A stretch of 64,000 bases of DNA from Rugalucina vietnamica (taxonomy: Eukaryota; Mollusca; Bivalvia; Lucinida; Lucinidae): positions 25,863,456-25,927,455 of the forward strand of contig OZ024875.1 of assembly GCA_964017185.1 (NCBI GenBank), given 5' to 3'. Below the pieces are notes generated by a model, which ran no database searches, was not told the DNA's origin, and saw only the letters and a program-made list of their open reading frames with translations. Both the position numbers and the translations under genes were made by a program. Shown here in pieces: positions 8,695-64,000 of the stretch; position 1 is the first letter of the stretch; each line of letters begins with the position of its first letter.

Positions 8695-11600
8695 TTTAGC
8701 CATCGATGCTTCACTCCAAAGTTCATGGAAATTTGTCAAATGGTTCAGAGAAGAAGATTTATATGGGCATGGCGGCCATCTTGGTAATGTGACCTAGATT
8801 ATTAATAAACACATTGGTTCCCCCATCCTATAGAATGATGCTTCAGATAAAATTTGGCTTTAATTGGCCAAGTGGTTTCAGAGGAGAAGAAGTTTGAATA
8901 TTATGGTATTATACATGTATATTGCCCCAGGGTGGGGGCATATGAGCCCTTGGGTCCATTTGTTTTTTTTTTTTTTTTTTTTTTTTCAGAATCATTAATA
9001 TTTAATCCTTCTGCCCATTTCCTGCAAGATTTTCACCTCAAATGACTTTTTAAAAGTTTTCCCCATTTAAATGCATTGGCAACCTATGTTGACCTTGTCG
9101 TAAAATAGGTCAAGGTCACCACAGTGTCATGATTTATATATACATTGTAGTGCTTGAGCCATATATACTTCATGCCAAGTTTCGTTGAAATCGGTCCACC
9201 GGTTCTGGAGAAGATTTTTTAAGGTTTTCCACCATTATTGGTATGGCAGCCATCTTGGTAATGTGAACTAGATTATTATGTCTCCCCCCGACAGGGTCGG
9301 GAGACATATTGTTTTTTCCCGTGCGTCTGTCTGTCCGTCCGTCCGTCTGTCCGTCACAAATCGTGTCCGCTCTATAACTTGAAAACCGTTAAAGATTTTT
9401 CAATGAAACTTGGTACACTTGTAAACCACGACGAGACGATGTGTCATGCACAAGAACCATAACTCTAGCTTGAGTATTTTTAGGAGTTATTTCCCTTTGA
9501 TTATTTTCGATACAATTTCGTGTCCGCTGTTTAACTTGAAAACCGTTAAAGATTTTTCAATGAAACTTGGTACATTTGTAGACCACGACGAGACGATGTG
9601 TCATGCACAAGAACCATAACTCTGGCTTGAGTATTTTTGGAGTTATTTCCCTTTGATTATTTTCGATACAATTTCGTGTCCGCTGTATAACTTGAAAACC
9701 GTTTAAGATTTTTCAATAAAACTCGGTACACTTATTGAGCATGATCAGACGATGTGTCATGCACAAGAACCATAACTCTGGCTTGAGTATTTTATGAGTT
9801 ATTTCCCTTTGATTATTTTTCATACAATTTCGTGTCCGCTTTATAACTCGAAAATCGTAAGAGTTATTTCAATGAAACTTGGTACACTTATAAAGCACGA
9901 TGAGATTACGTGTCGTGCTAAAGAACCATAACTCTTGCTTGCATATCTTTGGAGTAATTTCCCTTTGATTATTTTCCATACAATTTTGTGTCCACCCTTT
10001 AACTTGAAAACTGTAAGAGAAATTTCAGTGAAACTTGGTACACTTATAAAGCATGATGAGACGATGTGTCATGCACAAGAATTATAACTCTTGCTTTCAT
10101 ATCTTTGGAGTTATTTCCCTTTGATTATTTTTCCATACAATTTCATGTCCACTCTATAACTTGAAAACCATAAGAAATATTTCAACGAAACTTGGTACAC
10201 TTATAAAGCACGATGAGATGATGTGTCATGCTAAAGAACCATAACTCTTGCTTGCATATCTTTGGAGTTATTTCCCTTTGATTATTTTTCATTCAATTTC
10301 GTGTCTGCTCTTTAACTCAAAAACCATTAGAGATTTTTCAATGAAACATGGTACACTTATAAAGCATGATGCACAAGAATCATTACTCTTGCTTTCATAT
10401 CTTTGGAGTTATTTCCCTTTGATTATTTTCCAAACACTTTCGTGCCCCCTCTATAACTTGAAAACCGTAAGAGATATTTCAACGAAACTTGGTACACTTA
10501 TAAAACAGAATGACAGGATATGTGATGCACAAGAACTATAACTCTTGCTTGCATATTTTGGACATGCACGTAGAAAGGGGGGAGACATCAGTTTTCACAT
10601 AGAAAACAAATTCTAGTTTACGTATTGATTCCCCAATTCTATAGACGCTTTACATAAAATTTGGCTTTGATTGGCCTAGTGGTTTCAGAGGAGAAGATAT
10701 TTGAATATTATGGTAATTTACATGTATACTGCCCCGGGGTGGGGGAAGATGAGCCCCTGGGGTCCAATTTTTTTTCAGAATCATTAATATTCAGTCCTAC
10801 TGCCCATTTCCTGTAAGACTTTCACTTTATATGACATTTTTAAAGTTCTACCCATTCAAATGCATTGGTGACCTATGTTGACCTTGCCGTAAAAAAGGTC
10901 AATGTCACCACAGTGTCATGTTTTATATACATATTGTAGTGCTTGAGCCATATATACTTCGTGCTAAGTTTCATTGAAATCGGTCCACCGGTTCTGGAGA
11001 AGAAGATTTTTGAAGGTTTTCTACGATTATTGGCATGGCAGCCATCTTGGTAATGTGAACTAGATTATATTTATACACACATTGATTCCCCAATTCTATA
11101 GACGCTTTACATAAAATTTGGCTTTGATTTGCCTAGCGGTTACAGAGGAGAAGATATTTGAATATTATGGTAATTTACATGTATAAGGCCCCGGGGTGGG
11201 GGAAGATGAGCCCCTGGGGTCCATGTTTTTCAGAATCATTAATATCCAGTCCTACTGCCCATTTCCTGTAAGACTTTCACTTTATATGACATTTTTAAAG
11301 TTCTCCCCATTCAAATGCATTGGTGACCTATGTTGACCTTGCCGTAAAAAAGGTCAAGGTCATCACAGGGTCATGATTTATATACACATTGTAGTGCTTG
11401 AGCCATCGATGCTTCATGCCAAGTTTTATTGAAATCGGTCCATCGGTTCTGGAGAAGAAGATTTTTAAAGGGCTTTTACCATATATGGGCATGGCGGCCA
11501 TCTTGGTCATGTGACCTGGATTTCTTATTTACACATTGGTTCTCCCTTCCTATTGATGCTTCACATAAAATTTGGCTTTGATTGGCCAAGCGGCTTCAGG

Positions 11601-12125
11601 GGAGATGATGTTTGAATATTATGGTAATGTACAGGTATATTGCCCCGGGGTGGGGGCAGATGAACCCCTGGGGTCAAATTTTTTTCAGAATCATCAATAT
11701 TCAGTCCTACTGCCCATTTCCTGCAAGATTTTCACTTTAAATGACATTTTAAAATTTTTCCCCATTCAAATGCATTGGCGACCTATGTTGACCTTGCCGT
11801 AAAATAGGTCAAGGTCATCACAGGGTCAAGATTTATATACACATTGTAGTGCTTGAGCCATCGATTCTTCATGCCAAGTTTCGTTGAAATCGGTCCACTG
11901 GTTCTGGAGAAGATTATTGAAGGGTTTTTACCATATATGGGCATGGCGGCCATCTTGGTCATGTGACCTGGATTTCTTATATACAAATTGGTTCCCCCTT
12001 CCTGTTGATGCTTCACATAAAATTTGGCTTTGATTGGCCAAGCGGTTTCAGAGAAGAAGATGGACGGACGCCGGGTGCCTCCCTATCCTATAACCTCACC
12101 TGTGAGCCTTCGGCTCAGGTGATAG
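8695..12125 (+). repeat. F4 satellite-cored element, copy 1, interrupted
   Basis: Tandem units of about 450 bp carry fixed landmarks: GGCATGGCGGCCATCTTGG, TGATTGGCCAAGCGGTTTC, TTGAATATTATGGTAAT, a CCCC-rich GGGGTGGGGG block, CCCATTTCCTGCAAGA and GTTGACCTTGCCGTAAAA. The 3' end carries GGACGGACG, then a hairpin ending CGGCTCAGGTGA. The 5' end module is missing, so this copy is 5'-truncated. An F1 element interrupts it at 9276-10613. Open frames in it repeat from unit to unit and are not genes. Confidence 0.85.
9276..10613 (-). mobile_element. F1 satellite-cored mobile element nested in F4
   Basis: On the plus strand it begins at the hairpin ATGTCTCCCCCC...GGGAGACAT and a GTCC-type microsatellite (9330-9355). 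About eight units of about 156 bp follow (landmarks AACTTGGTACACTT, GAACCATAACTCT, TTATTTCCCTTTGATTA). It ends with GGGGGGAGACAT (10577-10588) and AACAAATTCTAGTT. The inverted repeat ATGTCTCCCCCC is perfect over 12 bp at 9278-9289 and 10577-10588. Read on the minus strand it starts AACTAGAATTTG and ends in a GACGGA microsatellite plus a TA...TA hairpin. Non-autonomous, with no coding sequence. The architecture suggests a Helentron/HINE- or pearl-like element. Confidence 0.8.
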
Positions 12126-14830: not shown

Positions 14831-14883
14831 ACTTTACCTTTAAGTTATTTTTTTATAATACTTTTAAGTATATAAAATAGAAA

Positions 14884-15026: not shown

Positions 15027-15186
15027 TTAAAGTAAAACTGGGATGAACCGGCTTATACATATTTTCTTATTTTTTGCTCTCAACCTAATTAAATTTTATG
15101 GGTACATGTATTTGTTAGAACTACCATTTATTTCCTACTATGAATTTATCCAATTTTGCAGCTGAAAAAAAATCTTTTCTTGCTTG

Positions 15187-15189
15187 TTT

Positions 15190-15225
<36 letters not shown>

Positions 15226-15912: not shown

Positions 15913-15914
15913 TT

Positions 15915-18831: not shown

Positions 18832-19168
18832 ATGTATGTTTGGTACATCTACATTTATATATCGATGTCGTATTGTAACAAAAAATGGCGGAAAAAATCT
18901 AAGTGATGATTAAAAAAAAGAAAGAATAATCGACATTTTCCCTAATTCATGTACTGTACATGTAAATTTAAGTAATTTTATTTCAGCCTCTTACCTGATG
19001 CACTGTGCGAACTATTTAAACTGGGTGTCCTAAACAAATGTGTCTGGTAGATTTTCTAATTCTTAATGAACTTTTTGACATACAAATAATAAACGAAAAT
19101 GTCTATGTCATTACCAATTGCATTGCAACTCTTGCATTCTGTTTTATGAAAATATGTCTTTTAATTGT
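18832..19168. other. Non-coding stretch
   Basis: AT-rich, no gene or repeat recognised. Confidence 0.4.
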
Positions 19169-29104: not shown

Positions 29105-29806
29105 AAATCCATAGTTTTCACTTTTCCCATGTAAAAGCCCATGTGACCTAGATTTCGCGATCAAACTTTCGTCTCCCCTACCCATGAATGCTTCACATAC
29201 AATTTCACTTTGATTGGCCAAGCGGTTTCAGAGAAGAAGATCTTTGAAAAGTGTGTATGGACGACAGACACATACCTTCATCTACTCCATTAGTTGTTTG
29301 CATCTACCACTTTTCAGGCCTCAGGCTGCAAAAGTTTTCAAAAAATCCATAGTTTTCACTTTTTCCCATGTAAAAGCCTATGTTTCCAAAATTGACATTG
29401 CCGTAAAATAGGTCAAGGTCATCCAATGATCATCATTTGATCAAACTATGATGGGCTGGAGTCCCAAATGCTACATACCAAGTTTCATGAAAATCGGCCT
29501 GCCGGTTCTGGAGAAGATTTTTGAGTGGTTTTTACCATATATGGGCGTGGCGGCCATCTTGGTCATGTTACTTGGATTTCGCGATCAAACTTTCGTCCCC
29601 CCTACCCATGGATGCTCCACATGTGACCAAGATATCGCGAACAAAATTACAATGCCACTACCCAAGAAGGCTCCACATAAAATTTCAACTAGATCCGCCA
29701 AGCGGTTTCAGAGAAGAAGATCTTTGAATTTGTGGACGACCGACGGACGCCGGATCATGGCCATCCTATAAGCTCACCTTGTGAGCCTTTGGCTCAGGTG
29801 AGCTAA
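29105..29806 (+). repeat. F4 satellite-cored element, copy 2 (short)
   Basis: Two short F4-like units with TTTGATTGGCCAAGCGGTTT, ATAGGTCAAGGTCATC, GGCGGCCATCTTGG, then GACGACCGACGGACGCCGG and the terminal hairpin ending GGCTCAGGTGAGCTAAAA. Confidence 0.75.
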
Positions 29807-36600: not shown

Positions 36601-38042
36601 GAGTCCTATACTCCCAGGACCTCTCACTCTGGAGTCGTGTACTCTACCGCCAGGCCATCACTCTCCCTTTATGGTATGTGCAGGAAGGAGAAAAGCCAGT
36701 GCTCATCTTATGATGCTGAGTGCCAGGCAAGGCAGACACTGGTACTATTGGCCAAGATTCCAGTCTATAACTTTATGAGGCCGAGAGCCAGGCAAAGCAG
36801 ACACTGGTACCATTGGCCAAGATTCCAATCTACAACCTTATGATGCTGAGTGCCAGGCAAGGCAGACACTGGTACCATTGGCCACAATTCCAGTCTACAA
36901 CCTTTTGATGCTGAGTGCCAGGCAAGGCAGACACTGGTACCATTGGCCAAGATTCCAAGATTCCAATCTACAACCTTATGATGCTGAGTGCCAGGCAAGG
37001 CAGACACTGGTACCATTGGCCACAATTCCAGTCTACAACCTTTTGATGCTGAGTGCCAGGCAAGGCAGACAATGGTACTATTGGCCAAGATTCCAGTCTA
37101 CAACCTTACGATGCTGAGTGCCAGGCAAGGCAGACACTGGTACCATTGGCCAAGATTCCAGTCTACAACCTTATGATGCTGAGTGTCAGGCAAGGCAGAC
37201 ACTGGTACTATTGGCCAAGATTCCAGTCTACAACCTTACGATGCTGAGTGCCAGGCAAGGCAGACACTGGTACTATTGGTCAAGATTCCAGTTTACAACC
37301 TTATGATGCTGAGTGCCAGGCAAGGCAGATACTGGTACCATTGGCAAAGATTCCAGTCTACAACCTTATGATGCTGAGTGACAGGCAAGGCAGACACTGG
37401 TACCATTGGCCAAAATTCCAGTCTACAACCTTTTGATGCTGAGTGCCAGGCAAGGCAGACACTGGTACTATTGGCCAAGATTCCAGTCTACAACCTTATG
37501 ATGCTGAGTGCCAGGCAAGGCAGACACTGGTACCATTGGCCAAGATTCCAGTCTACAACTTTATGACGCTGAGAGGCAGGCAAGGCAGACACTGGTACTA
37601 TTGGCCAAGATTCCAGTCTACAACCTTATGATGCTGAGTGCCAGGCAAAGCAGACACTGGTACTATTGGCCAAGATTCCAGTCTACAACTTTATGACGCT
37701 GAGAGCCAGGCAAGGCAGACACTAGTACCATTGGCCAAGATTCCAGTCTACAACCTTATGATGCTGAGTGCCAGGCAAGGCAGACACTGGTACTATTGGC
37801 CAAGATTCCAGTCTACAACCTTATGATGCTGTGTGCCAGGCAAGGCAGACACTGGTACCATTGGCCAAAATTCCAGTCTTCAACCTTTTGATGCTTAGTG
37901 CCAGGCAAGGCAGACACAGGTACCATTGGTCAAGATTCCAGTTTACAACCTTACGATGGCAAAGTAGACATTACACCACTTAAGCTACTGAGACCATCTA
38001 ATGTATATCTTTCATGAAAAATAAATAAGCAGCTTCAAGCTT

Positions 38043-38077
<35 letters not shown>

Positions 38078-41000
38078 CAACAAAAAAAAAAAAACAACAG
38101 AAATTACACTGCAGTGTAAACTAAACTAGTGGTCCGAAACTCTCATATTGTAACTGAATATACCTTGCTTGTAATTCTGTTCGTTTAGCACTGGATTTCT
38201 TATAAGCTGCTGTGACATGGTAGGTACAAAACTCTCCTTGCGACCTGAATAGACATTGAAGTTATAAACACCATATGAATATGTTACTACAATAATTTTT
38301 TTAACTTTCTCACACCTGAACCTGTGTACTAATTAGTTTTACCAGGGTTTGCATTGCTTCAACTGACAAATATGATTGATCAGCCAAACCCTTGGGCACA
38401 TTACAGTACCACCAGAAAGCCCAAAGATATCTTGGCAACACCTGCTAGCACACATAGCCTTAAAAAGTTGTACATAATTTAGGAAGTAATAATAGAGGGA
38501 TCAGGAATCGATGCAATTAAATTTAAAGTCCCAACATAGACACCAGCTGGAAAAGAAAATACATAAAACATGACAAAACATTTTCTGACAACACACTCGA
38601 AGAGCAGAATGGCTAGCTCTTTCCCAACAAGGTAGTCATCCGGCTAAGTTTTAACATGAACGAAAGGCAACGAGCACGACAGAGAGGCAGGCGCAATAAA
38701 CAGTAGTATAATGAAGATAAACCACTTTTCCTGGGACATCGATTATCGTTTTTACTGGGGACAAGTATGATGAAGATGAACCAATTTTCCTGGGACACAA
38801 CTTATCGTTTTTCTGGGGACGCCGAAAACCATTTTTCCTGGGGAAATCCTCGAAATCATAAAGAAAGAAAATTAATGGCAAACACATGAAACAAAAACTT
38901 TTGATGTAACTAGAAATTGGCTGCAAGCAAGGCTTTCAGTATACCCCCCGCAAAATTATCTGAAGCTGGCCAATAACATGCAGAAAATTTGTCAAAGATA
39001 TCTTTTCAGAATTATAATCCTTCATGTACATCCCCAGTATGCCAGTCACATCTATAAGATATTAAAAGAATATATTGAAAGCTTGAGGTTGATTTCACTG
39101 TATGCACTATGATCATTGTTTATCATGAGAAATGGTAAAAATTGGCTAAGTTAAATAAAAGCTGTAAGTTTGTCAAAAATTAAATTTTCAGCATGAAGAT
39201 TATTCATGCACATCTAAAATATATCTGGAACAAATCTACAAAGAATCTAAAAGAAACATTGAAAGCCCTAGGAGGAGTTGATTTCACAAAGTATGCACTA
39301 CCAACCATTATTGTATATAAGCAATGGTCAAGAAATGGCTATGTTGAAAAATGATGTAAATTTGTCAAATATCACTTTTTTCAGTATTATAATTATTCAT
39401 GCACATCTTCAATATGTGTGGAACATGTCTGCAAAGTATTGAAAAGAAATACTGAAAGCCCTAGGAGGAGTTGATTTCACAAACCATCATTGTATATAAG
39501 CAATGGTCAAAAAATGGCTATGTTAAAAAATGCAGTAAATTTGTCAAAAATTAATTTTTCAGTATTATAATTCTTCAAGCACATCTTCAATATGTGAGGA
39601 AGATGTCTGCAAAGTATCAAAAAGAAATACTGAAAGCCCTTGGAGGAGTTGATTTCACAAAATGTGCACTACCAACCATTTTTGTATATAAGCAATGGTC
39701 AAAAAATGGCTATGTTGAAAAATGATGTAAATTTGTCAAAAAATATTTTTTCAGCATTATAATTCTTCATGCACATCTTCAATATGTGTGGAACATGTCT
39801 GCAAAGTATTGAAAAGAAATACTGAAAGCCCTAGGAGGAGTTGATTTCACAAAGTATGCACTACCAACCATTATTGTTTAAGCAATGGTCAAAAAATGGC
39901 TATGTTAAAAAATGCTGTAAATTTGTCAAAAATTATTTTTTCAGCATTATAATTCTTTATGCACATCTTCAATATGTGTGGAACATGTCTGCAAAGTATT
40001 GAAAAGAAATACTGAAAGCCCTAGGAGAAGTTGATTTCACAAACTATGAACTACCAATCATTATTGTATATAAGCAATGGTCAAAAAATGGCTATGTTGA
40101 AAAATGCTGTAAATTTGTCAAAAATTATTTTTTCAGCATTATAATTCTTCATGCACATCTTCAATATGTGTGGAACATGTCTGCAAAGTATTGAAAAGAA
40201 ATACTGAAAGCCCTAGGAGGAGTTGATTACACAAACTATGCACTACCAACCATTATTGAATATGGCAATTATCGAAAATTGGCTAAGTTCAAAATGCTGT
40301 AAATTTGTCAAAATTCATTTTTTTCAGCATAATACTTCTTCATGCATATCTTCAATATCTCTGGCACATATCTGCAAAGTATCAAAAGAGAATATTGAAA
40401 GCTGTAGGAGGAGTTGATTTCACAAAGTATGCACTATTAGCACTATGGCAAACATTCTATGTACAGGTTTAAAAAGTCCCATAACTCTTGCAAAACTGAC
40501 CCTTTGGCCCCTAAATTCATACCACACATGTGTTGTCTTATGGTGCAGGTGTGTTGAAAATTTAAAGAACATCGGGCAAAAACTACTTAAGTTATTCAGC
40601 AAAGATGTCAAAATGTTGACGGAATGACGGAATCACGGAATCACGGAATTACGGACAGACTGAAAACAGTATACCCCCCTAAAACTTCGTTTTGCGGAGG
40701 GTATAATTACGTTAAAATCCCAACCACATACACCAGAAATACAGCGATGATCATTTAATATCATTAATAAAACCATTTTTAATAGGACAGCAAAATTACC
40801 AATCTTTCAGTACAGCGAAAATGTATTAGTGATTATTAAAAACGGACTGGAATAAAAAATAAACCAAGATCTCAACTGGCTAACATGTATTGCAAATAAA
40901 GCCAAAACCTCGACCCAAAGATACTAGGCGGGAAGGAGAGCATTTCCACTGGTTCATCAAGATGTTCATACATGAAACTAAACAAGAGCCCAACAAGAAA

Positions 41001-44000
41001 AGCAGCAACTCGACCATAATAAGTCAAAAACACCCGACGAGCACCCCGACGAGGACCCTATCCCAGCTGTGTACATGGCTAATGAGCATTTTTTTGACTA
41101 GGTAGTGCAATATGCTTTTGCTATAAAAATATCAGCCGACAAAATAAAACATGTTTAGAGCTTCATTGATTAGCTACTAAGTAAGGTTACTTTGTTACGG
41201 ACCTTGGCCCAGTTGTTCGAAATAAACAACATCGTTAGTTAACAATTCGTTAAAATTTCAAATACGAAAATTACAAATATACTGTTATTTATTGTTGATA
41301 AAATGTGAGAATCCTTTGCATAATTATGAATACACTGTTATTTTTTGTAGATAAAATGTGAGAATCCTTTGCAAAGGATTCTCACATTTTATCAACAAAA
41401 AATAACAGTGTATTTGCTTATGTAGTCGGCATTTACTTTACGAGTTGAGGCCTTGATGACGTTAAGCTAACAAAGTTTTGAACAACTGGCCCCTGGTGGA
41501 AATCCAAGACAGATTTTCTGGTGACACTGTTCACATAATAATGCTCTATCTAGCAGATCATTTTAATGGATGCAACATGAATTGAAATATTTCACACCGT
41601 TTACTTAAGGATTGAATTTCAGATTTAAGCTTTCACTGGATGATGAAAAACATCAGGCTGTTTTAATGTCTGTGAAGGCTTCTCGGAGACATTTAAACAA
41701 CTAATGTTTTTCATCATCCGGTGAAAGCTAAAATCCAAATTTCAATACTTATATTTACATTTTAAATTATCAATCAAGTATCAGATTTTTATATGCACAT
41801 ATCATCGCTCATTTTCATGTTATTTAACATTAAATCCGACTTAACGTAATTTTGGAACAGCTCAACGTCATGACGATACGAGACCGATGTCACGCCAACA
41901 AAAGTAAACATACAATGTCACAGGCTGGTTTTGATGTTGCCCCGCCCATAGGCTTGGCCTCTAGATAACTTGATTTAATGTTTTTCATTGGTAAATAATT
42001 CCAACTTTACTAATTTCCTACATTCTGATTGGCTGTTTGGAAGACTTTACACTTCGATAAAAGCAATGCGTAAGAATACTCAGTTTTCACCTTAAAAACG
42101 GCGCGACGTTACGTGATATCGTGACGTTTCTTCACTGAAACGTTGACGTCACCAAATCTAAACGTCATAAAAACAATGGATGAACGCGTTTTGATGGCGT
42201 CGAAATGAATATTTGGAATTTTTATTATTATGGACGCTTTTTCTTTTAACAGAACACCGTACGGTAAGTGTTTTAATCTTCTTGTTGTGTGTTGAAATTT
42301 GACGTTTGTATTTCTAGAATTCCGAGCCCCAGTTCAAAATCGGCATGCCTTTCTAACGGTCCAGACGGCGATAATTTCTCCCAAAAGCACAATTTTGAAT
42401 GAAGGGTTGATGTTTTAAAGCTCCCGCTTTGGCAGCCTGGCTATAGCCAGCCGGTGATAGCCTCTATTTATTGCGAGAAGTGAGTTTCATGCTTTGGAAA
42501 TTTTCAAGATGGCTGCCTCATGAAGATCCGTTTTGCTCTATTTTCCTTCCGCTGGCCATAAAAAATTAAATCAATGTCGACAAATGCAGTTTAATGAGAC
42601 AAAGTTGGAATTATAAGGAATGAATTATTATTTTTGTTGATTTTATCGATGTGTAAACTCAGGCGAATCACTCACAAACTTTTTCATAAAGCCCTTCGGG
42701 CTTTATTTAGTTTGTGAGTGATTCGCCTGAGTTTACACATCGATAAAATCAACAAAAATAAAATTCATTCCTATAATGAAGAATGTCAAGAAAGATACTT
42801 TTTCATCTGGGGCGATTGCAATAAAAATGTAAATATTACGACTTGGTCTTCAACTCTAACTCTTCATCCAATTGTAAGATATCATTCATTTTAAGTCCTA
42901 GAATTTTAGATAAAAAATTTGTGGTAACAAATTTAAATTTGAATAATATCATCTGTAGTATAGTTGCGGCTTAACCCATATTTGACGAATGGATTTTCCC
43001 ATCATTATAAATTGGGTGAGTCCACTTTCATTTTTAGGGGCGTTAGGAGTGATTTTTATATTTTTTTTTATCTCATTTTTAGATGAAATTTCTCTGTGCA
43101 AACAGAATAGCCCCAGATCTGGGGCTATTCTGTTTGCCTATGTCCCGCAAAAAGGACACCAGGCTTAAACTAGAAATTGGCTGCAAGCAAGGCTTTCAGT
43201 ATACCCCCCGCAAAATTATCTGAAGCTGGCCAATAACTTCCTAAGTCAAACATGCAGAAAATTTGTCAAAGATATCTTTTCAGAATTATAATCCTTCATG
43301 TACCGGCATCCCAAGTATGCCAGTCACATCTATAAGATATTAAAAGAATATATTGAAAGCTTGAGGTTGATTTCACTGTATGCACTATGATCATTGTTTA
43401 TCATGAGAAATGGTAAAAATTGGCTAAGTTAAATAAAAGCTGTAAGTTTGTCAAAAATTAAATTTTCAGCATGAAAATTATTCATGCACATCTAAAATAT
43501 ATCTGGAACAAATCTACAAAGAATCTAAAAGAAACATTGAAAGCCCTAGGAGGAGTTGATTTCACAAAGTATGCACTACCAACCATTATTGTATATAAAC
43601 AATGGTCAAGAAATGGCTATGTTGAAAAATGATGTAAATTTGTCAAATATCACTTTTTCAGTATTATAATTATTCATGCACATCTTCAATATGTGTGGAA
43701 CATGTCTGCAAAGTATTGAAAAGAAATACTGGAAGCCCTAGGAGGAGATGATTTCACAAATCATTATTGTATATAAGCAATGGTCAAGAAATGGCTATGT
43801 TAAAAAATGCTGTAAATTTGTCAAAAATTAATTTTTCAGTATTATAATTCTTCATGCACATCTTCAATATGTGAGGAACATGTCTGCAAAGTATCAAAAA
43901 GAAATACTGAAAGCCCTTGGAGGAGTTGATTTCACAAAATGTGCACTACCAACTATTTTTGTATATGAGCAATGGTCAAAAATGGCTATGTTGAAAAATG

Positions 44001-47000
44001 CTGTAAATCTGTCAAAAATTATTTTTTCAGCATTATAATTCTTCATGCACATCTTCAATACGTGTGGAACATATCTGCAAAGTATTGAAAAGAAATACTG
44101 AAAGCCCTAGGAGGAGTTGATTTCACAAAGTATGCACTACCAACCATTATTGTTTAAGCAATGGTCAAAAAATGGCTATGTTAAAAAATGCTGTAAATTT
44201 GTCAAAAATTATTTTTTCAGCATTATAATTTTTCATGCACATCTTCAATATGTGTGGGACATGTCTGCAAAGTATTGAAAAGAAATACTGAAAGCCCTAG
44301 GAGAAGTTGATTTCACAAACTATGAATTACCAATCATTATTGTATATAAGCAATGGTCAAAAAATGGCTATGTTGAAAAATGCTGTAAATTTGTCAAAAA
44401 TTATTTTTTCAGCATTATAATTCTTCATGCACATCTTCAATATGTGTGGAACATGTCTGCAAAGTATTGAAAAGAAATACTGAAAGCCCTAGGAGGAGTT
44501 GATTTCACAAACTATGCACTACCAACCATTATTGAATATGGCAATTATCGAAAATTGGCTAAGTTCAAAATGCTGTAAATTTGTCAAAATTCATTTTTTC
44601 AGCATAATACTTCTTCATGCATATCTTCAATATCTCTGGCACATATCTGCAAAGTATCAAACGAGAATATTGAAAGCTGTAGGAGGAGTTGATTTCACAA
44701 AGTATGCACTATTAGCACTATGGCAAACATTCTATGTATAGGTTTAAAAAGTCCCATAACTCTTGCAAAACTGACCCTTTGGCCCCTAAATTCATACCAC
44801 ACATGTGTTGTCTTATGGTGCAGGTGTGTTGAAAATTTAAAGAACATCGGGCAAAAACTACTTAAGTTATTCAGCAAAGATGTCAAAATGTTGACGGAAT
44901 GATGGAATCACGGAATGACGGAATCACGGAATTACGGACAGACTGAAAACAGTATACCCCCCTAAAACTTCGTTTTGCGGGGGGTATAAAAATGGCTAAG
45001 TTAAATAAAAGCTGTAAATTTGCAGCTTTATGCATTATGACCATTATTGTATATAAGCAATGGTCAAAAATGACTGTGTTGAAAAATGCTGTAAATTTGT
45101 CAAAAATTAATTTTTCATAATAATAATTCTTCATGCACACCTTCAATATGTGTGGAACATGTCTGCTAAGTATTGAAAAGAAATACTGAAAGTCCTAGGA
45201 GGAGATGATTTCACAAAGTATGCACTACCAACCATTATTGCATAAGCAATGGTCAAAAAATGGCTATGTTAAAAATTGCTGTAAATTTGTCAAAAATTAT
45301 TTTTTTCAGTATTATAATTCTTCATGCACATCTTCAATATGTGTGGAACATGTCTGCAAAGTATTGAAAAGAAATACTGAAAGCCCTAGGAGGAGTTGAT
45401 TTTTACAAACTATGAACTACCAACCATTATTGTATATAAGCAATGGTCAAAAAATGGCTATGTTGAAAATTGCTGTAAATTTGTCAAAAATTATTTTTTC
45501 AGCATTATAATTCTTCATGCACATCTTCAATATGTGTGGAACATGTCTGCAAAGTATTGAAAAGAAATACTGAAAGCCCTAGGAGGAGTTGATTTTTACA
45601 AACTATGAACTACCAACCATTATTGTATATAAGCAATGGTCAAAAAATGGCTATGTTGAAAATTGCTGTAAATTTGTCAAAAATTATTTTTTCAGCATTA
45701 TAATTCTTCATGCACATCTTCAATATGTGTGGAACATGTCTGCAAAGTATTGAAAAGAAATACTGAAAGCCCTAGGAGGAGTTGATTACACAAACTATGC
45801 ACTACCAACCATTGTTGAATATGGCAATTATCAAAATTGGCTAAGTTCAAAATACTGTAAATTTGTCAAAATTCATTTTTTCAGCATAATACTTCTTTAT
45901 GCATATTTATAATATCTCTGGCACATATCTGCAAAGTATCAAAAGAGTATACTGAAAGCTGTAGGAGGAGTTGATTTCACAAAGTATGCACTATTGGCAC
46001 TATGGAAAACATTCTATGTATAGGTTTAAAAAGTCCCATAACTCTTGCAAAACTGACCCTTTGGCCCCTAAATTCATATCACACATGTGTTGTCTAATGG
46101 TGCAGGTGTGTTGAAAATTTGAAGAACATCGGACAAAAACTACTTAAGTTATTCAGCAAAGATGTCACAATGTTGACGGAATGACAGAATGACGGAATGA
46201 CAGAATGACGGAATGACGGAATCACGGACAGGCTGAAAACAGTATACCCCCCTAAAACTTCGTTTTGCAGGGGGTATAATGAGTTAACCAAGAAGATATA
46301 AGATTCTGTCAGTGACAATACCTACTTGTTAATGAACTGTGAGCAAGGGTTGCCTGCCTTTGTTGTTCCCTTACATCGTCCCAGATCTTTAGAATGTCCC
46401 ATGATCAACATCTGTTGGGGATGGTTTATTGTAAACGCTATCTCTGACTGCGACTGAAATGAGTATGAGAAATAAAATATTCAGTCTAAACAGCCTCTGT
46501 GCTTCTGAAAATGCCATCAGTTAAAATGTGTATACAAGATTAAAATTAAGGGATAGCTTTATTCAAATTTTTCATTTGGGGCAGAATATCATCTGATATA
46601 CGGTCAGAAACTTTCAGAAAGTATTACCATAATACCACCTCAAATAAAAAAAAAATGAATATTGTTATCCTCATTCAAATGCACTTTTTAACTATATACA
46701 TCGAAAATGTATTCTTTTTCACGAAACAGGAGTGTCACTAGCCACATATAACCACAAAGTTAACCAATCACGGGACAACGCTAATGACATTTTGGTTTCC
46801 GACGGTATATCGCAGTACAGTCACAATTTTTTTGCATTATCCAATCAGACGTCATGTTACATTCTCAAGTGCATTAGAATGATGATTATTCGCTCTCTGT
46901 GATAAGTCTATGCTGAAAAAGGCACACATTAGCAGTCATTTTCAAGAAACTTTTGTATGACAATCTTCAGTGCCATGGGTGACTTTACCTGGTAATACAA

Positions 47001-50000
47001 AAATCAATATATAGTACAGTTTTCCAACTTTTAAATTCCTTACATACATGTGATACCTCCCTGATCATCACATATACTCCAGGAAAATTGGTCAGAATTG
47101 GTTCTACTAAAATGAACCACTTTTTGATAAAAATTCAAAATCTCCCTATAATGAATCAAGAATTTTCTTATGTTTTCTATACATTTTTTTCATAAAAAAA
47201 ACTCCCTGAAGTCAAAGAAAACTCTCCCTGATGCCTATTTCAAGCTCATCACATGTATGTCTTTACCTTCTCTGATTTATCCATCATGGTAGCATTGAGC
47301 AGTCCGATCACGGTCCCTGTGTCATTCTTCCAATGTTCCTTATAGACATTACCAAACAGGAAGAAACTAACAGTCTTATCACAGTCTTTGAGATCACTCA
47401 GTTTCCAGATACAGAATTGCTTCCCCTGAAGGCAGAAAACATACAATCCCTCCGTGACAATTACCTGACCAGGAAAAAAAATGTCAATATCCCTGACTTT
47501 TCCCTTATGCCTGGCAACCCTGGAATTTTAAGAAATTAAAAAAATGCAAATAAATAAACTTTGAAAAAGAACTCTTTAATAGATGTCAGCCTTGTAGATA
47601 ATTTTTCACAATGTGTACAATAAGCATTAAAATGTATAAACAGTGCGTATCAACAATTCAAGTGTGCACTCATTTTCTCAGCAGCATGATTAACAACCCT
47701 GGTCCCCAAAATGATATGGATTTATGTTTTAGAAATATTCAAGTATAGAAGTATTATTGTTGATCATCATGTACGGTAAGTGCATGCTGTTCTTACATGT
47801 GAAAGAACTGTTTAAACAATATGAAAAACAATACAACCTCCATGGCATAAAAGGAAGTTCTGAGGATAAGGTATGAAACTGGTCTGCTGTAGAATGTGCG
47901 ATACATCATGTTATAAAGGAGCATAATGACCAGAATCTAACATAAATATCTGTACTAAACACTGGCACAGAAGTCCAATTGATGCGTCACTTTTATAATT
48001 TTCATATATGACCATTTTGGTAATGATTTGTCTAGTGAGGCCAGACTGGAAATGCACATACTGGTATGATATAATGTTATATGGAATGATCTTAGATTAC
48101 ATTGTAATTCAGGCCATTCCATATGTAATTCTCCGTATACTTGCAACCAGACAAAAACAACTTTAAATCCATTTCAGTCACATATGTAACTGTTTGGAAT
48201 CTTTGAAATAATATGCATGGATTTACACACTATAGTGAAAACTATGTGCGTACCACTGAATTTTATCGCTTACATGGTAGGCATAGATAAGAAATTTCAG
48301 TGTGTACAGATCCAAAAATCATGCATACATACGCAGTACACACACTTATCTATTTTGCTCGGTATAGTCACACACCAGACAAAAACTATTAACTTAGTGT
48401 TCCCTACTGGCTGATACTGATTTTTCATGAATATTTTGCTACTGTTTGAATGTAGATGAAGTATTTTCTTGGCATAATTGAGCAATAAGTTTGTCACAAA
48501 ATGTGCAACAAAAATTTTGATAATCTATTGACAAATAAAAAAAGTTCTGGTGAAAAACATTTTGAATAGGGATTTTCTGTATAAAAATCTCATGGAAAGG
48601 AGGTAAATATTTTCACCTGTAAAAATTTTAAATTCTTTGTATTTAATTATGATTGCTCAAAATCATTATCAAATGACACAAACAGCTTATAATAAGTTAT
48701 TCGAGATGAAATCTTCTTGATCAAGTAAAATTCTTTGAAAAATATCCATTTTCATTGATTATCTCCCTTGCCAATGCAAAATCTCTATACAACATTCATT
48801 TTGGCCATTAAAACTTTATCTGCTGACCCATTTTCAAAATTTTTGCAGGTCCTATTAGGACACACTAAGATCAAGATTTTGACATGAAAATAATTTTCCA
48901 ACCAGCCTCCACACAATAAATTTTCTGCCAAAAACTCTTATCAAAGGCAAGATTTTAAACTATAGTACAATGGTTAAAACCCAATCTGAGTAATATTTAA
49001 AGACAATTAGAAAATCTATGAGCTTGTTTCTCTATAGAAACTGTCTAAACCATACAATTCTTATATGTACCTAAAACTTCTGTTCTGAAGTATAACAAGA
49101 ACTCCGCAGAGGTCGATATCGCACCTGCATCGGGCAAAGTCAATAGACCGTGAAATATAGTTCAAGGGCACAGGGTCAAGGTGCGTACTTGAAGGGCATG
49201 TCAAGGACAATTACTATGCAATGTTTCAGACTTGCAGCTATCTCTGATGTCGAGAAAACCAAACTTCGACGTAAAAATTTTCAAAGTCAGTGGACCGTGA
49301 AATATAGGTCAAGGGCACAGGGTCAAGGTGCGTGCTTGAAGGGTATGTCAAGGACAATTACTATGCAAGGTTTCAGACTTGCAGCTATCTCTGATGTCGA
49401 GAAAACCAAACTTTGACGTAAAAATTATCAAAGTCAGTGGACCGTGAAATATAGGTCAAGGGCACCGGGTTAAGGTGCGTGCTTGAAGGGTATGTCAAGG
49501 ACAATTACTATGCAAGGTTTCAGACTTGCAGCTATCTCTGATGTCGAGAAAACCAAACTTTGACGTAAAAATTATCAAAGTCAGTGGACCGTAAAATATA
49601 GGTCAAGGGCACCGGGTTAAGGTGCGTGCTTGAAGGGTATGTCAAGGACAATTACTATGCAAGGTTTCAGACTCGCAGCTATCTCTGATTTCGAGAAAAC
49701 CAAACTTCGACATAAAAATTGTCAAAGTCAGTGGACAATGAAATATAGGTCAAGGGCACTGGGTTAAGGTGCGTGCTTGAAGGGTATGTCAAGGACAATT
49801 ACTATGCAAGGTTTCAGACTCGCAGCTATCTCTGTTGTCGAGAAAACCAAACTTCGAAGTAAATATTGACAAAACTTCGACGTAAAAATTTTCAAAGTCG
49901 TTGGACCGTGAAATATAGGTCAAGGGCACCGGGTTAAGGTGCGTGCTTAAAGGGTATGTCAGGGACAATTACTATGCAAGGTTTCAGACTCGCAGCTATC

Positions 50001-53000
50001 TCTGATGTCGAGAAAACTAAACTTCGACGTAAATGTTGACGGACGAACGAACGAACGGAGGAACGTATGGACGGACGGAAATTTGAACTCCTATATCGCA
50101 CCCTACTATAAGCAGGTGCGATAATAAAAAAATATCCATCAAGTATATGACTGTTTAGCCACCCTCCAGATAGATAGTCTAATGTTCCTGTTTCACCTAC
50201 TCCCATTTCGCCTATTACTCCCGTTTTCCCTACTCTCAACATTCAACGAATTCCAGTTTCGCCTACTCTGCACTGTTTGTCAGCAAACACTTGTTTCCTT
50301 TTCTTATCATTTATTTCTTTCTATTCTACATGTTTTATAGTGAATATAAGTATGCAAATATTATGCATGCTTTAAATGTTAAAAAAAAAATAATAATAAT
50401 AATTTAGATTAACAATTAATATAATTGCAAGTTTTGTATGTTTGCACAAGCTCATTAAATAACCATTTTCTAAAAAAAAAAATAAAAAATAAATGAATAA
50501 TTAATAAATAAAAACAAATACATAGTTCTTTTTTCTAAGGTAAACTTTACAATGTACATAAGCGCAGATCTGGTAAAAGGTGTCTTTGGGCATTCAAGTA
50601 TATTTTATGCTATTAAAAATTTAAAAACATCTAAATTTGAAATATTTGGCATGCTCTGATATTCATGTCTAACTGCTTTGATATTGTAACACAATCCAAG
50701 ACACATATATTTCTTATGAAACAAAGTTGTGTATATCATGTATGTTTCCATGGCAACCGCTGTGCTATAAGGACTACCCACATTTTAAAATACAGGTACG
50801 CCGTTTGTAATGCATGTTTTATCAAACGGTGTGTGAATTTGTGCCGATAGCATAGTCTATACAGAGGTATAGATGTTGAACTTCAAGAAACACATAAAAT
50901 TTCTTGAATTTTAGTCCTAGCTTCTTTTCACTACAATGAAATAAAGACGTTAACGTCATCAACGTCGAAACGTCATTCACAATTCTCATGGCGTCATGTT
51001 TAGATTGTACCAACTACACATCTTTAATTGCTCATATCTTTGCTGTTTGTTAAGATAATCACTTCAAATTTTCAGGACATACTCAAAGAAACTTGGTCTT
51101 TCACATGTCATAAATATCTTAATTTTGAATTTTTTGCCATAAGACCTCTTTTATCAAATCTTGGCCCACATGTATTTGCATATTTGAATGCATATCATGT
51201 TCTTAGTTTGTTATTCATCCATATTGAATGGGAAGGTGGAACAGGAATATTAAACTTTTCTGGTGTAGGCAAAATGGGAGTGGGCAAAATGGGACAAATC
51301 ATACACACAACGGGAGTAAGCGAAACGGGAGTAGGCAAAATGGGAGTAGGCGAAATGGGAGTAGGCGAAACAGGAACATCCCTACTGGTAAGAGTGGAAA
51401 GATAAACTCGGCTTACAGCAGCTGACTGCCTGGGTTCTGTCTTGTGAACTACAACACCAATTGTGACCCAGTTATCTTTCTGTAGATCATTTCTACTGAC
51501 TTTCTGCTGGATATGGGACACCCTCACCATTGCCCGACCTGACATCTTCGACTTGAATTCAGCCATTGAGATTCTTGGATTTCTGCGAAGAAAATGGACA
51601 AAAGCATTTGGGTGACAAAATCTGACATTTTTAGAGAAAAGCATTTAAATGATTTTGCTAGTGAATAGCGAACTTATTTTTTACTATGAAAACATGATAA
51701 GGACTTCAGGATCATGACATGTCATATGGTGATGAAATAAGTTAACAATAAACTAGAGAGACTTGCCAAAGGAGACAACCGATCCCATAGAGGCACTTTT
51801 TTCATGCTCTGATTCAATCTCTACTTCAGAGACAGTTCTCTATGGTAAGTTAAGATGTATGAATCTTTGTGGGGTTATAGCAAGATCCATGGTGTCCAAA
51901 TCTTATGAGTTAGGCTGTGCTTACATAATTCTGATGCCACAGTAAGGATCTGTTGTACATTCCTGCTCCTCTACCTCAGGTAGTTGTGCTGTGACTGGTT
52001 TAGGTTTATATTCCTCTCGCAGAGTGTATTTCCCACTAACTGTACCAGTCTCGGGATCTACCTGGGGTTTGATTGTCACTGGTTTGGTCTTCCTCACTGG
52101 TTTATTTGCTGTAGAAGTTGAGTGACCTTTCAAGACAAACAGAAGTATGATAAATGCCATGTATAATGCCTTACCCCAAAACCACTTTGGTGTGTGTATG
52201 TATATACATGTAGCTGAAATAAATAAATGTAATTGAGTCACCTGCATATGTACATGCAAATTGGAACAAATCAGTGTGTTTATTCGATAAATTTAGGGCT
52301 TACAGCCCTTCCACAGTGTTTCAGGTAATACTGAGAGTTGACAGCTATCCTAACTCTACTTGATTGGGCAATCCTGACTTAAAGTAATGTGTTATCAGTA
52401 ATAAATTTTGGTACATTCATTCACAATTAACCAACAATTGTGCCAAGTCAGCAGTCAAGTTATCAATACATTTCATCTTGGCACAAGGCCTTGTATCTAA
52501 TACCTGGCCAATTATTAGATACAGTACTTACTAGACCACCTAGCTCGTGGAGATTTCTTGAGGATACTTGGATCATACTTGGGTGTGTGGGCTATCCTCT
52601 GACCGGGACCTTTCTTCAGTAGCTTGTTGATCTGTCTACCTTCATCACTTAGATTGCTCTTCTTCTCTTAATCAATAAAGAAAGTGTATTATTTTGACAT
52701 AAGACTGCTTTGTCATTTTTTATATAGGTAAAATATTCCAAGATACAATGAGGGAAAAAAAATCATAATACGGGCATTTTAACAACATGCTATAGATAGT
52801 TTTCCACATTTCACATAAGAATATATGTATGTAGATATAAAAACAATGTTAACTTTAATGCACTGGTTGCAATGGAAGTCACATCACTTGCTTGTCAACT
52901 TGTATCATAAAATCACATAAAGTTATGTCAATCAAAATGGCTGGCATGAATCCAAACTGGTTGAAGAGCAAACTTGACAATTTATGTGCATGACAAAAGA

Positions 53001-58891: not shown

Positions 58892-61800
58892 ACCAGAGGA
58901 CCAATGGTCCTGTAAACGCTCACCTGAGTCTGCTGCATATACCAATAAACATGTTTGAATATTATGGTATTTAACCCCAGTGCAGGGGCAGATGAAGCCC
59001 TTGGGCCATTTTCTTTTTTCAGACTAATCAATATTCTGTCCATGGATGCCTCACACCAAGTTTCATTAAAATCAATCTATTGGTTTCAGAGAAGAAGATA
59101 TTTGAAGGGTTTTTACCATATATGGGCATGGTGGGCATCTTGGTCATGTGACCTAGATTTTTAATATACACATTGGTTCCCCCATCCTATAGATGCTTCA
59201 CATTAAATTTGGCTTCAATTGGCCAAGTGGTTTTAGAGGAGAAGATGTTTGAATATTATGGTAATATACATGTATATTGCCCCGGGGTGTGGACATATGA
59301 GCCCTTAGGTCCATTTTTTTTTCAGAATCATTAATATTTAGTCCTACTACCCATTTCCTGCAAGATTTTCACCTCAAATGACTTTTTAAAAGTTTTCCCC
59401 ATTCCAATGCATTGGCGACCTATGTTGACCTTGTCGTAAAATAGGTCAAGGTCACCACAGGGTCATGATTTATATATACATTGTAGTACTTCAGCCATTG
59501 GTGCTTCATACCAAGTTTCTTTGAAATCGATCCTCAAAATTCGGAGAAGATTTTTGAAGGGTTTTTACCATATATGGGCATGGCAGCCATCTTGGTTATG
59601 TGAACTCTAAGCGGCTAAAACACAATCAGGGTGGACATTTCACAAAATACATGTTATACGCCAGTATTTTGCCCTGATGCACTCCTAGAATGACGTTATT
59701 GTCATAGCTCAATAGGAAACTTCTCAAGCTTTCCAGTGATATATAATATGTGTGGGTTATTAGTAGCGGAACAGTTTACTGCCTAGTCAAAAGGCTAAAA
59801 TTTGGCCATTTTTGAGTGTTATAAAGTTTCACTTCAAAATTTCTATTATTTTACAAGACTCCAGCTATTATAATTTCATCTTTAGCCAATAAGTTTATGT
59901 CAGAAATTCAAAAGGAATACCTTAACTCTTATCTGAAGTGATTAATACATTGGTACATGCCTTTGCATTAATTACTAAGAGCTTTTCTTAAAAGTAGCCC
60001 TTTGTTATACATTTTGGCCTTTTAATATCCCCAAATCAGGGGCTTCCAAACTTAATAAACTGCAAAATATATAATCACAAATGCAATATTAAGCATAAGA
60101 TACTTTTTGAATTTCGATGGAAGAGCCCTAATTGAATAGAAAGTGATTATGGAATCTGCCAGATGCAATTTTGTAACATCATGTAAAATGTCGTGTCCGT
60201 AGCCCCCTATTTTCAAGCCCCTGTTAAAGTATGTTATCAGTGCTTTATATAAACATGACCTTCACTTTCCGTTGCGGGTCCAGGGATTTAACGTTTTATA
60301 AGAAAAATTTGTGGCTAGCTAAATGGTTTCATAAGATATCATGGTAACTATGCTGTCCGTAGCCCTGTCGTGTCCGTAGCCCCCCATTTTTGTTGTTTGC
60401 TTAAAATGATCATTTTAAGCTTATCTCATTTTTTTTGGGTTTTAAACAAACAAGAACACAATTAAAAGTCATAAATGTACCAGTAGATATGAATCTTACA
60501 ACTTAAAACTTATGACAAAACTGTATTAAAATAGATAGGGCTACGGACACAACGCATTTTCATATTTGTCCATATGTTGAAAATTTTCAAAGATTTTTCA
60601 GATTAAATCTGTTATCTAACACCAAAAAGTGCCCTAAAAGTAAAAAATATCAATACAAGATAAATTGCATTAGCCAAAATGCATGTTATATTTTCAAATA
60701 TTTAGGCCCTAAAGGCATAGGTATGGTGAAATTTTTGAAAGCCTGAAAACAAAATGAAAATTTCTGCATTTTCGCACCTACAAGATGTCTCTGAAAACAA
60801 AAATGCCATCTAAATATGCCCCACTGAAAATTCATTTTTTGACAAAAGTGAAACCCAAATGTCCACCCTGATTGTGTTTTAGCCGTAGTACTAGATAATT
60901 TATATATACATTAATTCCCCCATTCCATAGATGCTTCACATACAATTTGGCTTTGATTCGCCAAGCGGTTTAAGAGGAGATGTTTGAATATTATGGTAAT
61001 ATACATGTATATTGCCCTGGGGGTGGGGGCCGAAGAGCCCCTGGGGTCCAATTTTTTTCAGAATCATTAATATTCAGTCCTACTGCCCATTTCCTGCAAG
61101 ACTTTCACTTTAAATGACATTTTAAAAGTTTTCCCTATTCAAATGCATTGGCGACCTATGTTGACCTTGCCGTAAAAAAAGGTCAAGGTCATCACAGGGT
61201 CATGATTTATATGCACATTGTAGTACTTCAGCCATCGATGCTTCATGCCAAGTTTCTTTGAAATCGATCCACCTGTTCTGGAGAAGAAGATTTTTGAAGG
61301 GTTTTTACCATATATGGGCATCGCAGCCATCTTGGTCATGTGACCTGGATTATTTATATATACATTGATTACCCCTTCCTATTGATGCTTCACATAAAAT
61401 TTGGCTTTGATTGGCCAAGCCGTTTCAGAGGAGATGATGTTTGAATATTATGGTAATATACATGTATATTGCCCAGGGGTGGGGGCATATGAGCCCCTGG
61501 GGTCCAATTTTTTTCAGAATCATTAATATTCAGTCCTACTGCCCATTTCCTGCAAGACTTTCACTTTAAATGACTTTAAATGACATTTTAAAAGTTTTCC
61601 CCATTCAAATGCATTGGCGACCTATGTTGACCTTGCCGTAAAATAAGTCAAGGTCATCACAGGGTCATGATTTATATACACATTGTAGTGCTTGAGCCAT
61701 CAATGCTTCATGCCAAGTTTCGTTGAAATCAGTCCACCTGTTCTGGAGAAGAAGATTTTTGAAGGGTTTTTACCATATATGGGCATCGCGGCCATCTTGG

Positions 61801-62481
61801 TCATGTGACCTGGATTATTTATTTACACATTGATTACCCCTTCCTATTGATGCTTCACATAAAATTTGGCTTTGATTGGCCAAGCAGTTTCAGAGGAGAT
61901 GATGTTTGAATATTATGGTAATATACATGTATATTGTCCCGGGGGTGGGGGCATATGAGCCCCTGGGGTCCAATTTTTTTCAGAATCATTAATATTCAGT
62001 CCTACTGCTCATTTCCTGCAAGACTTTCACTTTAAATGACTTTAAATGACATTTTAAAAGTTTTCCCCATTCAAATGCATTGGCGACCTATGTTGACCTT
62101 GCCGTAAAATAAGTCAAGGTCATCACAGGGTCATGATTTATATACACATTGTAGTGCTTGAGCCATCAATGCTTCATGCCAAGTTTCGTTGAAATCAATC
62201 CACCGGTTCTGGAGAAGAAGATTTTTGAAGGGTTTTTACCATATATGGGCATGGCGGCCATCTTGGTCATGTGACCTGGATTATTTATATACACATTGGT
62301 TCCCCCTTCCTATAGATGCTTCATATAAAATTTGGCTTTGGTTGGCCAAGCGGTTTCAGAGAAGAAGATCTTTGAAATTGTGAACGGACGGACGGACGGT
62401 TGACGGACGGACGACGGACGGACGCCGGATCATGGCCATCCTATAGGCTCACAAGGTGAGCCTAACGGCTCAGGTGAGCTA
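58892..62481 (+). mobile_element. F4 satellite-cored element, copy 3, complete ends
   Basis: Starts ACCAGAGGACCAATGGTCCT; subterminal GCTCACCTGAG (58918-58928) is inverted as CTCAGGTGAGC (62469-62479). Core units are about 450 bp (GGGCATCGCAGCCATCTTGG, CCTATGTTGACCTTGCCGTA, GGTCAAGGTCATCACAGGGT). The end module is GGACGGACGGACGGTTGACG, then a hairpin TAGGCTCAC...GTGAGCCTA. Interrupted at 59612-60885 by another element. Confidence 0.88.
59612..60885. mobile_element. 1.27-kb TIR element nested inside F4
   Basis: A perfect 29-bp terminal inverted repeat: CGGCTAAAACACAATCAGGG then TGGACATTT at 59612-59640, inverted at 60857-60885. The interior is AT-rich and holds the repeated phrase GTGTCCGTAGCCCC (near 60195 and 60370) and its complement near 60540. 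No long open frame. Superfamily unknown; no clear target duplication (possibly TA). Confidence 0.9.
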
Positions 62482-62988
62482 AAAATGCATACTATCTGGA
62501 TTTGTTTTACAGTATCTATCCCGTTTTTTCCTAAATTTCAAATGAATGTTGACAACTTCAGATGCAGAGCAGTGCTCATCATTGTTGTGTAACAAAGTTT
62601 ACAACATCTTCTTGTGACTATGTTTTGAATTGTAAATTACTGATGACACACCAAAGTAACAAAACTTCGCTACGTGCAGGATCAGACAGGCTAGTATGTT
62701 CGTGGTTGAAACCATGCCGCACAATGCTACAAAATACTCCTTATTATATAGCAGCTAACACGAAGCACCTAAGAGAAACAATTGACTGATGGTAGAGATG
62801 AATGAGGGGTAAAGCCTGTGAACAAGCAGACGGATGGAGAAACATCCGTACGGAATAAAAATGTCATTCTAGTGACGGTGTTACACACGGCAAGGTGTGT
62901 ATGACACTTGGTGTAATGAAGATGGCAATGACTTGTTAAGTTTGCAGTATACCGCGGTACCCAGCCCTAGTAAATACAATACATAATT

Positions 62989-64000
62989 AATAAGAGCTGT
63001 CGCAGGACAGCGTAGCTCGCCTGACTTGTGCTTTGCCACTACATCTGTTAAAATCTATGACCCATGACCTTGACCTCAAGGTCACTCAGGTGGGTCATGG
63101 TGGTACAACATAAAACTTCAGACCAATGCAAAGTATCAACTTGATCAATCTACATGTTCAAGAGATATAGACTTATAAAAAAATTAACCAAAACTTAAAC
63201 ACAATACTTCCAAGCCCGTGACCCTGACCTCAAGGTCATCCAGGTGAGTTGTGATGTACAGAATAAAACCTGAGACCAATATCTATCAACATGCAAGTAT
63301 CAACTTTATCCATCAACATGTTCAAGAGATTTAGACTTTAACCAAAAAATTTAACACATAATTTCTAAGTCTGTGACCTTGACCTCAAGGTCTCCCAGGG
63401 TAGGTCCTGATGGTACTGCATAAAACTTCAGACCAATATCTACCTACATGCAAAGTATCAACTCGATCAATCAACATGGTCAAGAGATATAGACTTACAA
63501 AAACTTAAATCAAAAATTTAAACACAAAATTTCTAAGTCTGTGACCTTGACCTCAAGGTCACAAAGAGTGGGTCATGATGGTACTGCATAAAACTTCAGA
63601 CCAATATCTAGCAACATGCAAAGTATCAACTCAATCCATCAATATGGTCAAGAGATATAGACTTACAAAAACTTTAACCAAAAACTTGAACACAAAATGT
63701 CTAAGTCCGTGACCTTGACCTCAAGGTCACCCAGGGTGGGTCATGATGGTACTGCGTAAAACTTCAGACCAATATCTAGCAACATGTAAAGTATCAACTC
63801 AATCCATCAATATGGTCAAGAGATATAGACTTTCAAAAACTTTAAACAAAAACGTGAACACAAAATTTCAAAGTCCATGACCTTGACCTCAAGGTCACCC
63901 AGGGTGGGTCATGATGGTACTGCGTAAAACTTCAGACCAATATCTAGCAACATGCAAAGTATCAACTCAATCCATCAATATGGTCAAGAGATATAGACTT
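62989..64000 (+). mobile_element. F5 satellite-cored element, 5' part, continues past the window
   Basis: Starts AATAAGAGCTGTCGCAGGAC with a small hairpin (GCTGTCGCAGGACAGC), then TAGCTCGCCTGAC. At least six units follow; the last spacings are exactly 168 bp. Each has TGACCTTGACCTCAAGGTCA or a variant, GGTCATGATGGTACTGC and CAATATGGTCAAGAGATATA. The 3' end is outside the window. Confidence 0.8.

Follow-up and report, generated by a model that had tools for sequence, protein, structure and literature searches.

Satellite-carrying HINEs of the bivalve Rugalucina vietnamica and the likely autonomous Helentron partner of one family

A stretch of 64,000 nucleotides from the lucinid bivalve Rugalucina vietnamica (assembly GCA_964017185.1, contig OZ024875.1, positions 25,863,456 to 25,927,455; here called the window) contains five tandem arrays whose core units, as delimited by Tandem Repeats Finder, differ from one another and match only over short runs of at most 34 bp. 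The arrays nevertheless share one layout of end structures, and this locus raises the question of how unrelated satellites come to lie between such ends, and which proteins could move them. An initial annotation, made from the sequence alone, proposed that a single trans-acting machinery, possibly Helentron-like, mobilizes interchangeable satellite cargo. We consider it highly probable that the elements F1 to F4, and probably F5, are HINEs, that is, non-autonomous Helentrons, and that the likely protein source for F4 is a multiplied autonomous family that carries F4's ends and F4's satellite.

Ends, boundaries and orientation of the elements

The picture of distinct cores within one layout drawn by the initial annotation holds, as do its statements that a subterminal repeat is reused at both ends and that no element codes for protein. 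The repeats, of 11 to 16 bp, are common to both ends of F1, F2, F3 and F4 and are unlike from family to family. No stop-to-stop frame of at least 120 aa is present in F1 to F4, which thus lack coding capacity in the manner of HINEs. The further claim, of a microsatellite opening with TGACGGA and followed by a hairpin bounded by TA, is also upheld. The window has 11 copies of TGACGGA, whereas 100 shuffles have 3.16 on average and 6 at most. The full module, TGACGGA with at least two further words of the microsatellite and a hairpin bounded by TA...TA, was located at six places (once each in F1, F3 and F4 and three times in F2) but not in any of 100 dinucleotide shuffles, by criteria that were chosen post hoc, after the modules had been read. 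The four terminal hairpins fold better as single-stranded DNA than their shuffles (z −2.9 to −4.6). F1 to F4 thereby combine the shared subterminal repeats and the hairpin at one end that are expected of HINEs; F5 has one end in the window. Rfam and tRNA scans of the window gave no match.

At the opposite end, the annotated start ACNAGAR was found in F1 to F4. The motif by itself is not enriched in the window (68 occurrences versus 63.3 expected, a number reached by 27 of 100 shuffles), and it is therefore meaningful only through its position at an element end. An inverted repeat is visible ahead of this terminus in F1, F4 and F5, and no clear one is seen in F2 and F3.

The direction in which the elements had been read must be reversed. 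In the HINEs of Crassostrea gigas, as presented in the available text of PMC7492417, the left end consists of a subterminal inverted repeat (subTIR), a complementary repeat and a GTCY-type microsatellite, and the right end of a subTIR and a palindrome. The window layout is the reverse complement of this arrangement, and the coding strand of F4's autonomous partner, described below, agrees with the published direction. The module annotated as 3' therefore constitutes the 5' end, with T|TA, hairpin and microsatellite, and ACNAGAR, read in this direction, becomes a Helitron-like 3' terminus, TCTNGT, which reads TCTAGT in F1 and F2, TCTTGT in F3 and TCTGGT in F4. In this orientation, each element opens at T|TA with a hairpin in which the subterminal repeat pairs with its complement, and continues through a spacer to a microsatellite of the GTCC type; the satellite array, the subterminal repeat again and the TCTNGT terminus follow. 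In our own likening, the terminus recalls the CTRR end that the accessible part of PMC4067079 gives for canonical Helitrons. Canonical Helitrons, however, have an AT target and a 5' TC, unlike the T|TA ends and TT target found here.

The position of the ends was followed in further copies, of which all F2 and F3 loci came from the first part of contig C1. Among the F2 loci, 20 were fetched by the hairpin end, two of them overlapping; an A follows the hairpin at all 20 of 20 distinct ends, and the opposite end, located in 14 of the 20 loci, reads A|ACTAGAAATTGG each time. For F3, an A follows 7 of 7 distinct hairpin ends. When the flanks of F1 are joined, they can be aligned with adjacent F4-type units, leaving a gap of 1 to 3 bases and no visible target duplication. 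The ends of F1 to F3 are true boundaries, at a TT target without target duplication. For F4, whose ends were seen in the window and at the C9 and C16 loci described below alone, insertion of the same kind would be expected from its having the same ends. Genome-wide, the F2 end pattern is matched 1469 times forward and 768 times in reverse, as compared with 3 and 2 for the reversed pattern, and the F3 end pattern 3343 and 1291 times, as compared with 2 and 2; the forward numbers are too high, as they include nested starts. In the copies of F3 that were examined, one 147-bp core family accompanies these ends. The first bases past the end had hinted at varied cores in six loci (L036-L041), but these cores likewise form one family of about 147 bp. 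In a separate instance, loci L030-L032, an F3 end occurs twice with an identical flank, 491 bp apart, as a local duplication of a satellite-carrying element.

These boundaries bear on whether the elements could instead be miniature inverted-repeat transposable elements (MITEs) of a cut-and-paste transposon, as similar bivalve elements (pearl) were first described according to the portions available of PMC5139131 and PMC7492417. The absence of target duplications, the asymmetry of the ends and the Rep-encoding partner of F4 leave this explanation with hardly any credibility.

The coding partner of F4

The initial annotation had suggested looking for an autonomous element with the same ends. Such an element was found for F4, and for none of F1, F2, F3 and F5. 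In a search of the R. vietnamica genome for Helitron_like_N (PF14214), 150 of 409 candidates were scored and all lay above the cut-off, many of them in uninterrupted frames of 1300 to 3542 aa. Thirty Rep loci fall into at least seven groups with mutual identities of about 20 to 61%. From the largest group, by listed places, parts of two copies were read, one at C16:32270562 and the other at C9:33589722. At 2.5 to 3.3 kb past the gene end, each of them has, in reverse complement, the module that had been annotated as F4's 5' end, and the flanks beyond it differ. At this 3' end, the final 38 bp of the C9 copy are 97.4% identical to F4. Upstream of its gene lies an F4 satellite array (85 to 89% identity in long matches), beyond which follow an ACGG microsatellite, the hairpin end of F4, matched at 26 of 26 bp, and a flank rich in T. 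The element so delimited, C9:33583142-33596424, measures about 13.3 kb, and its gene frame runs for 2580 aa without a stop. F4's 11-bp subterminal repeat is present at both ends, which places F4 and the C9 element in one family under the rule of at least 11 bp of identical subTIR given in the accessible part of PMC4067079.

The protein has the features of a Helentron. A member of the same group (L069) carries Helitron_like_N together with the HUH motif RGSPHIHM, which identifies the C9 family as Rep-encoding. Over 140 aa, the endonuclease piece in which the C9 gene terminates shows 92% identity to the C-terminus of P0041, a protein with Helitron_like_N and PIF1 among its precomputed domains; this identity and a match to Exo_endo_phos_2 below the cut-off mark a C-terminal apurinic/apyrimidinic (AP) endonuclease. 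In the C16 copy, the N-terminal part contains the Pfam domains Herpes_teg_N (36.2 bits) and DUF6570. Of 798 relatives, 120 were listed; the animal species named among these 120 are all bivalves, alongside a few bacterial symbiont bins and one invertebrate metagenome. Four proteins (P0056, P0067, P0078 and P0098) labelled as belonging to bacterial symbiont bins of lucinid-type clams are 57 to 78% identical to the C9-family Helentron; the Helentron-like proteins in such bins are probably host DNA.

Elements of the C9 type recur across the genome. When the genome was searched with 426 bp from the 3' end of C9, 40 places out of 451 candidates were scored, each at 100% identity. Of these, 25 lie on the proper strand and 6.6 to 11.3 kb beyond a Rep domain, with 20 of the 25 at 6.64 to 6.75 kb. 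The corresponding search with 361 bp from the 5' end produced 42 rows, with 40 of 385 candidates scored, and 39 rows were kept: eight have a Rep domain 5.98 to 6.76 kb away, seven have a 3' end 12.7 to 17.3 kb away, five have both a Rep domain and a matching 3' end, and ten have at least one of the two. Since the queries were taken from C9, it is C9-type elements that are shown to be numerous, rather than F4 HINEs that are counted. The near-identity of the copies points, at the level of sequence comparison, to recent multiplication, with segmental duplication as an alternative.

It could be asked whether F4 elements owe their place beside Rep genes to chance or to an insertion preference, instead of forming the ends of an autonomous element. 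F4-type elements are indeed frequent, with four in the window. Yet the fixed spacing and proper strand of the 20 paired 3' ends, and the five loci in which both ends flank the gene, make such an adjacency very improbable. Together with the MITE explanation, it is already disfavoured.

Several observations nonetheless weigh against the Helentron assignment or the partnership with F4. With respect to the protein, L069 gives only a weak REP_ORF2-G2P match (26.2 versus a cut-off of 27.8 bits), and a Rep tyrosine motif pattern that matched six of eight proteins tried found nothing in it. The Exo_endo_phos_2 match of the C9 gene (E 2.3e-5, 24.7 bits) falls under the curated Pfam cut-off of 27.4. The helicase part of the C9 copy lies outside the stretch read, and the domain is seen in relatives such as P0001, which is 92% identical over the query part. 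As for the copies, both ends were read in C9 only, and nine further loci rest on positions alone; the C16 satellite-like DNA is only about 70% like that of F4, its far end was not reached in the stretch read, and the 84.6% identity of the C16 and C9 genes was obtained over 175 nt only. Furthermore, neither a scored Rep domain nor a partner end accompanies 15 of the 40 3' ends and 29 of the 39 5' ends, with 150 of the 409 Rep candidates scored; the 29 unpaired 5' ends may be HINEs or unscored coding copies. Finally, two features claimed by the initial annotation are borne out only in part. F5 had been said to show the 5' module, but its end, AATAAGAGC, does not fit ACNAGAR and gives the terminus TCTTATT as its reverse complement, and of five hairpins claimed near the annotated 5' ends, that of F1 alone folds better than its shuffles (z −3.6), as opposed to F2 (0.1), F3 (0.4), F4 (−0.8) and F5 (0.3).

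Despite these points, a coding partner that has its ends and its satellite in common with F4 bears out the Helentron reading of the initial annotation. The partner is likely an autonomous Helentron family with Rep and a C-terminal endonuclease, F4 ends, and F4 satellite between the 5' end and the gene, and it likely serves as F4's helper. F4 itself is best read as a relative of this autonomous element without the coding part. By analogy with the known family, the Rep, helicase and endonuclease proteins of a Helentron would act in trans on these ends, and rolling-circle copying would start at one end and stop at the other; F4 may have been moved by a C9-type protein.

Features of the window

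The coordinates of the elements are collected in Table 1. Relative to the initial annotation, the outline stands with several revisions: F1 is slightly shifted and lies nested in an F4-type element absent from that account; the stretch 43169-46278, given as one F2 element, consists of a complete element and a piece lacking one end; and in F4 a nested element had gone unmentioned, while two further F4-type copies had been missed.

Table 1. Elements located in the window. Strands follow the orientation of the initial annotation for all parts; the published orientation is the reverse.
Feature	Positions	Strand	Description and basis
F1	9277..10617	-	HINE, 156-bp satellite units, nested in F4-type element; both ends located; paralogous empty site
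F4-type element hosting F1	8694..12122	+	core 8694-9277 and 10624-12062; microsatellite and degraded hairpin end to 12122; opposite end not found
F4-type fragment	29175..29805	+	with hairpin end
F4-type fragment	35029..35281	+	annotated 5' module (22/22 bp) and part of core unit
F2a	38909..40705	+	HINE, 192-bp satellite units; module search, ends compared in further loci
F2b	43169..44988	+	second complete F2 element; end modules and core
F2c	44989..46278	+	more F2 core with a hairpin end but no opposite end, adjoining F2b
F3	49095..50123	+	HINE, 147-bp satellite units; array, end module and recurring ends
F4	58892..62481	+	HINE, 466-bp satellite units; relative of autonomous Helentron C9:33583142-33596424
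Element nested in F4 satellite array	59612..60885	.	perfect 29-bp inverted repeats
F5	62992..64000	+	end module and 168-bp satellite units; continues beyond window, far end outside

An arrangement like that of F2b and F2c, in which an F2 element is followed by F2 core and a second hairpin end, is found with another junction at locus L013. Both composites could have arisen by self-insertion or read-through.

Elsewhere in the window, a frame at 33996-34412 (minus) scores weakly against an Mcm10 zinc-motif family (21.6 bits, under a cut-off of 26.8), and two exon-like frames at 51921-52292 and 54918-55298 have no family match. The elements may sit in introns of a putative Mcm10 gene. Two long frames with RVT_1 reverse-transcriptase domains, at 16178-18898 (minus) and 24653-27019 (plus), are apparently retrotransposons, and further tandem arrays occupy 31668-32066 (29-bp units) and 36707-37958 (65-bp units).

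One machinery or several

The question remains whether one Helentron machinery serves all five families with satellite cores as interchangeable cargo. The order of the parts and the T|TA start are common to all of them, the TCTNGT end to all but F5, and the GACGGA-type microsatellite to F1 to F4. However, the subterminal repeats differ by family, the partner found has F4 ends only, and at least seven divergent Rep groups coexist in the genome. Nor do the cores appear interchangeable: in the copies examined, F3 ends keep to their one core family, and the F4 satellite lies inside an autonomous element, so that "cargo" is not the best word for it. A single machinery is therefore improbable, and neither half of the earlier proposal is sustained.

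Instead, F1, F2, F3 and F5 probably depend on further Helentron families within this genome. Modules of all five families were sought in the loci L042-L073 and gave matches of 14 bp or less, except for an F4 end in L073; for F1, F2, F3 and F5 this is weak evidence, because these loci seldom reach element ends. By eye, no F2 or F3 ends were seen beside Rep genes in the listed part of C1. One candidate, the F2 hairpin end at C1:4987586 as belonging to the Rep gene at C1:5002582, was dropped; F2-like core is followed there by other sequence that appears by eye to be retrotransposon-like.

The presence of the satellite in the coding element suggests a different role for it, which we put forward tentatively and hold to be rather less probable than not. 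Satellites would be a resident part of active autonomous Helentrons and not captured cargo; rolling-circle copying would expand and contract the array in the coding element, gene-less copies would spread it, and the satellite would diverge faster than the gene. The F4-like satellite of C9 and the array of only about 70% likeness in C16 hint that the array diverges fast, by a gene comparison of 175 nt.

The headline of the initial annotation, that conservation of both ends across families may be new, does not stand, as the same layout with unrelated satellite cores has been published for C. gigas. The available text of PMC7492417 describes Cg_HINE elements with unrelated satellite cores of 138 to 181 bp, inserted at TT without target duplication, between a subTIR/inverted repeat/GTCY-microsatellite end and a subTIR/palindrome end. 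F1 to F5 are likened to these by description, as Cg_HINE sequences are absent from that text. They differ from them in that F4 has an autonomous partner, none being assignable there, and in the longer, 466-bp unit of F4. In insects and mites, according to the accessible part of PMC4067079, HINEs (HINE/DINE-1) are deletion derivatives of Helentrons, some with tandem repeats. The elements described here resemble those Helentrons in the Rep/helicase with a C-terminal AP endonuclease, the subTIRs, the 3' stem-loop and the T-rich target, but C9 has a large satellite array between the 5' end and the gene, and a shared TCTNGT terminus is not met in that part of the account. Helentrons with a herpes-tegument-like deubiquitinase domain have been reported from molluscs among others (PMC9741609, in the portion available), and the C16 copy likewise has Herpes_teg_N in the N-terminal part of its Rep protein; satellites and HINEs do not figure in that portion. 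In an oyster Helitron set, 257 of 751 elements have subTIRs and a CTAG 3' terminus that resemble the TCTNGT ends (PMC7992393, accessible text); AT targets make up 86% of that set, for which the text reports no evidence of autonomous copies, unlike the TT targets and coding copies found here.

What is new here is F4's autonomous partner, with coding copies that have matching ends and the same satellite. A literature search by title and abstract found no paper connecting an autonomous Helentron with a bivalve HINE that carries a satellite; it did not extend to preprints, subscription journals or Repbase, so that novelty is not proven. Satellite-carrying HINEs are abundant in oyster genomes, and in the available text of PMC7492417 the source of their transposition proteins was not assignable. 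With a coding partner in many near-identical copies, it becomes testable which proteins move which satellite, and also whether a satellite arises inside the coding element. If satellites are indeed resident in autonomous elements, each such bivalve satellite family would have its own Helentron.

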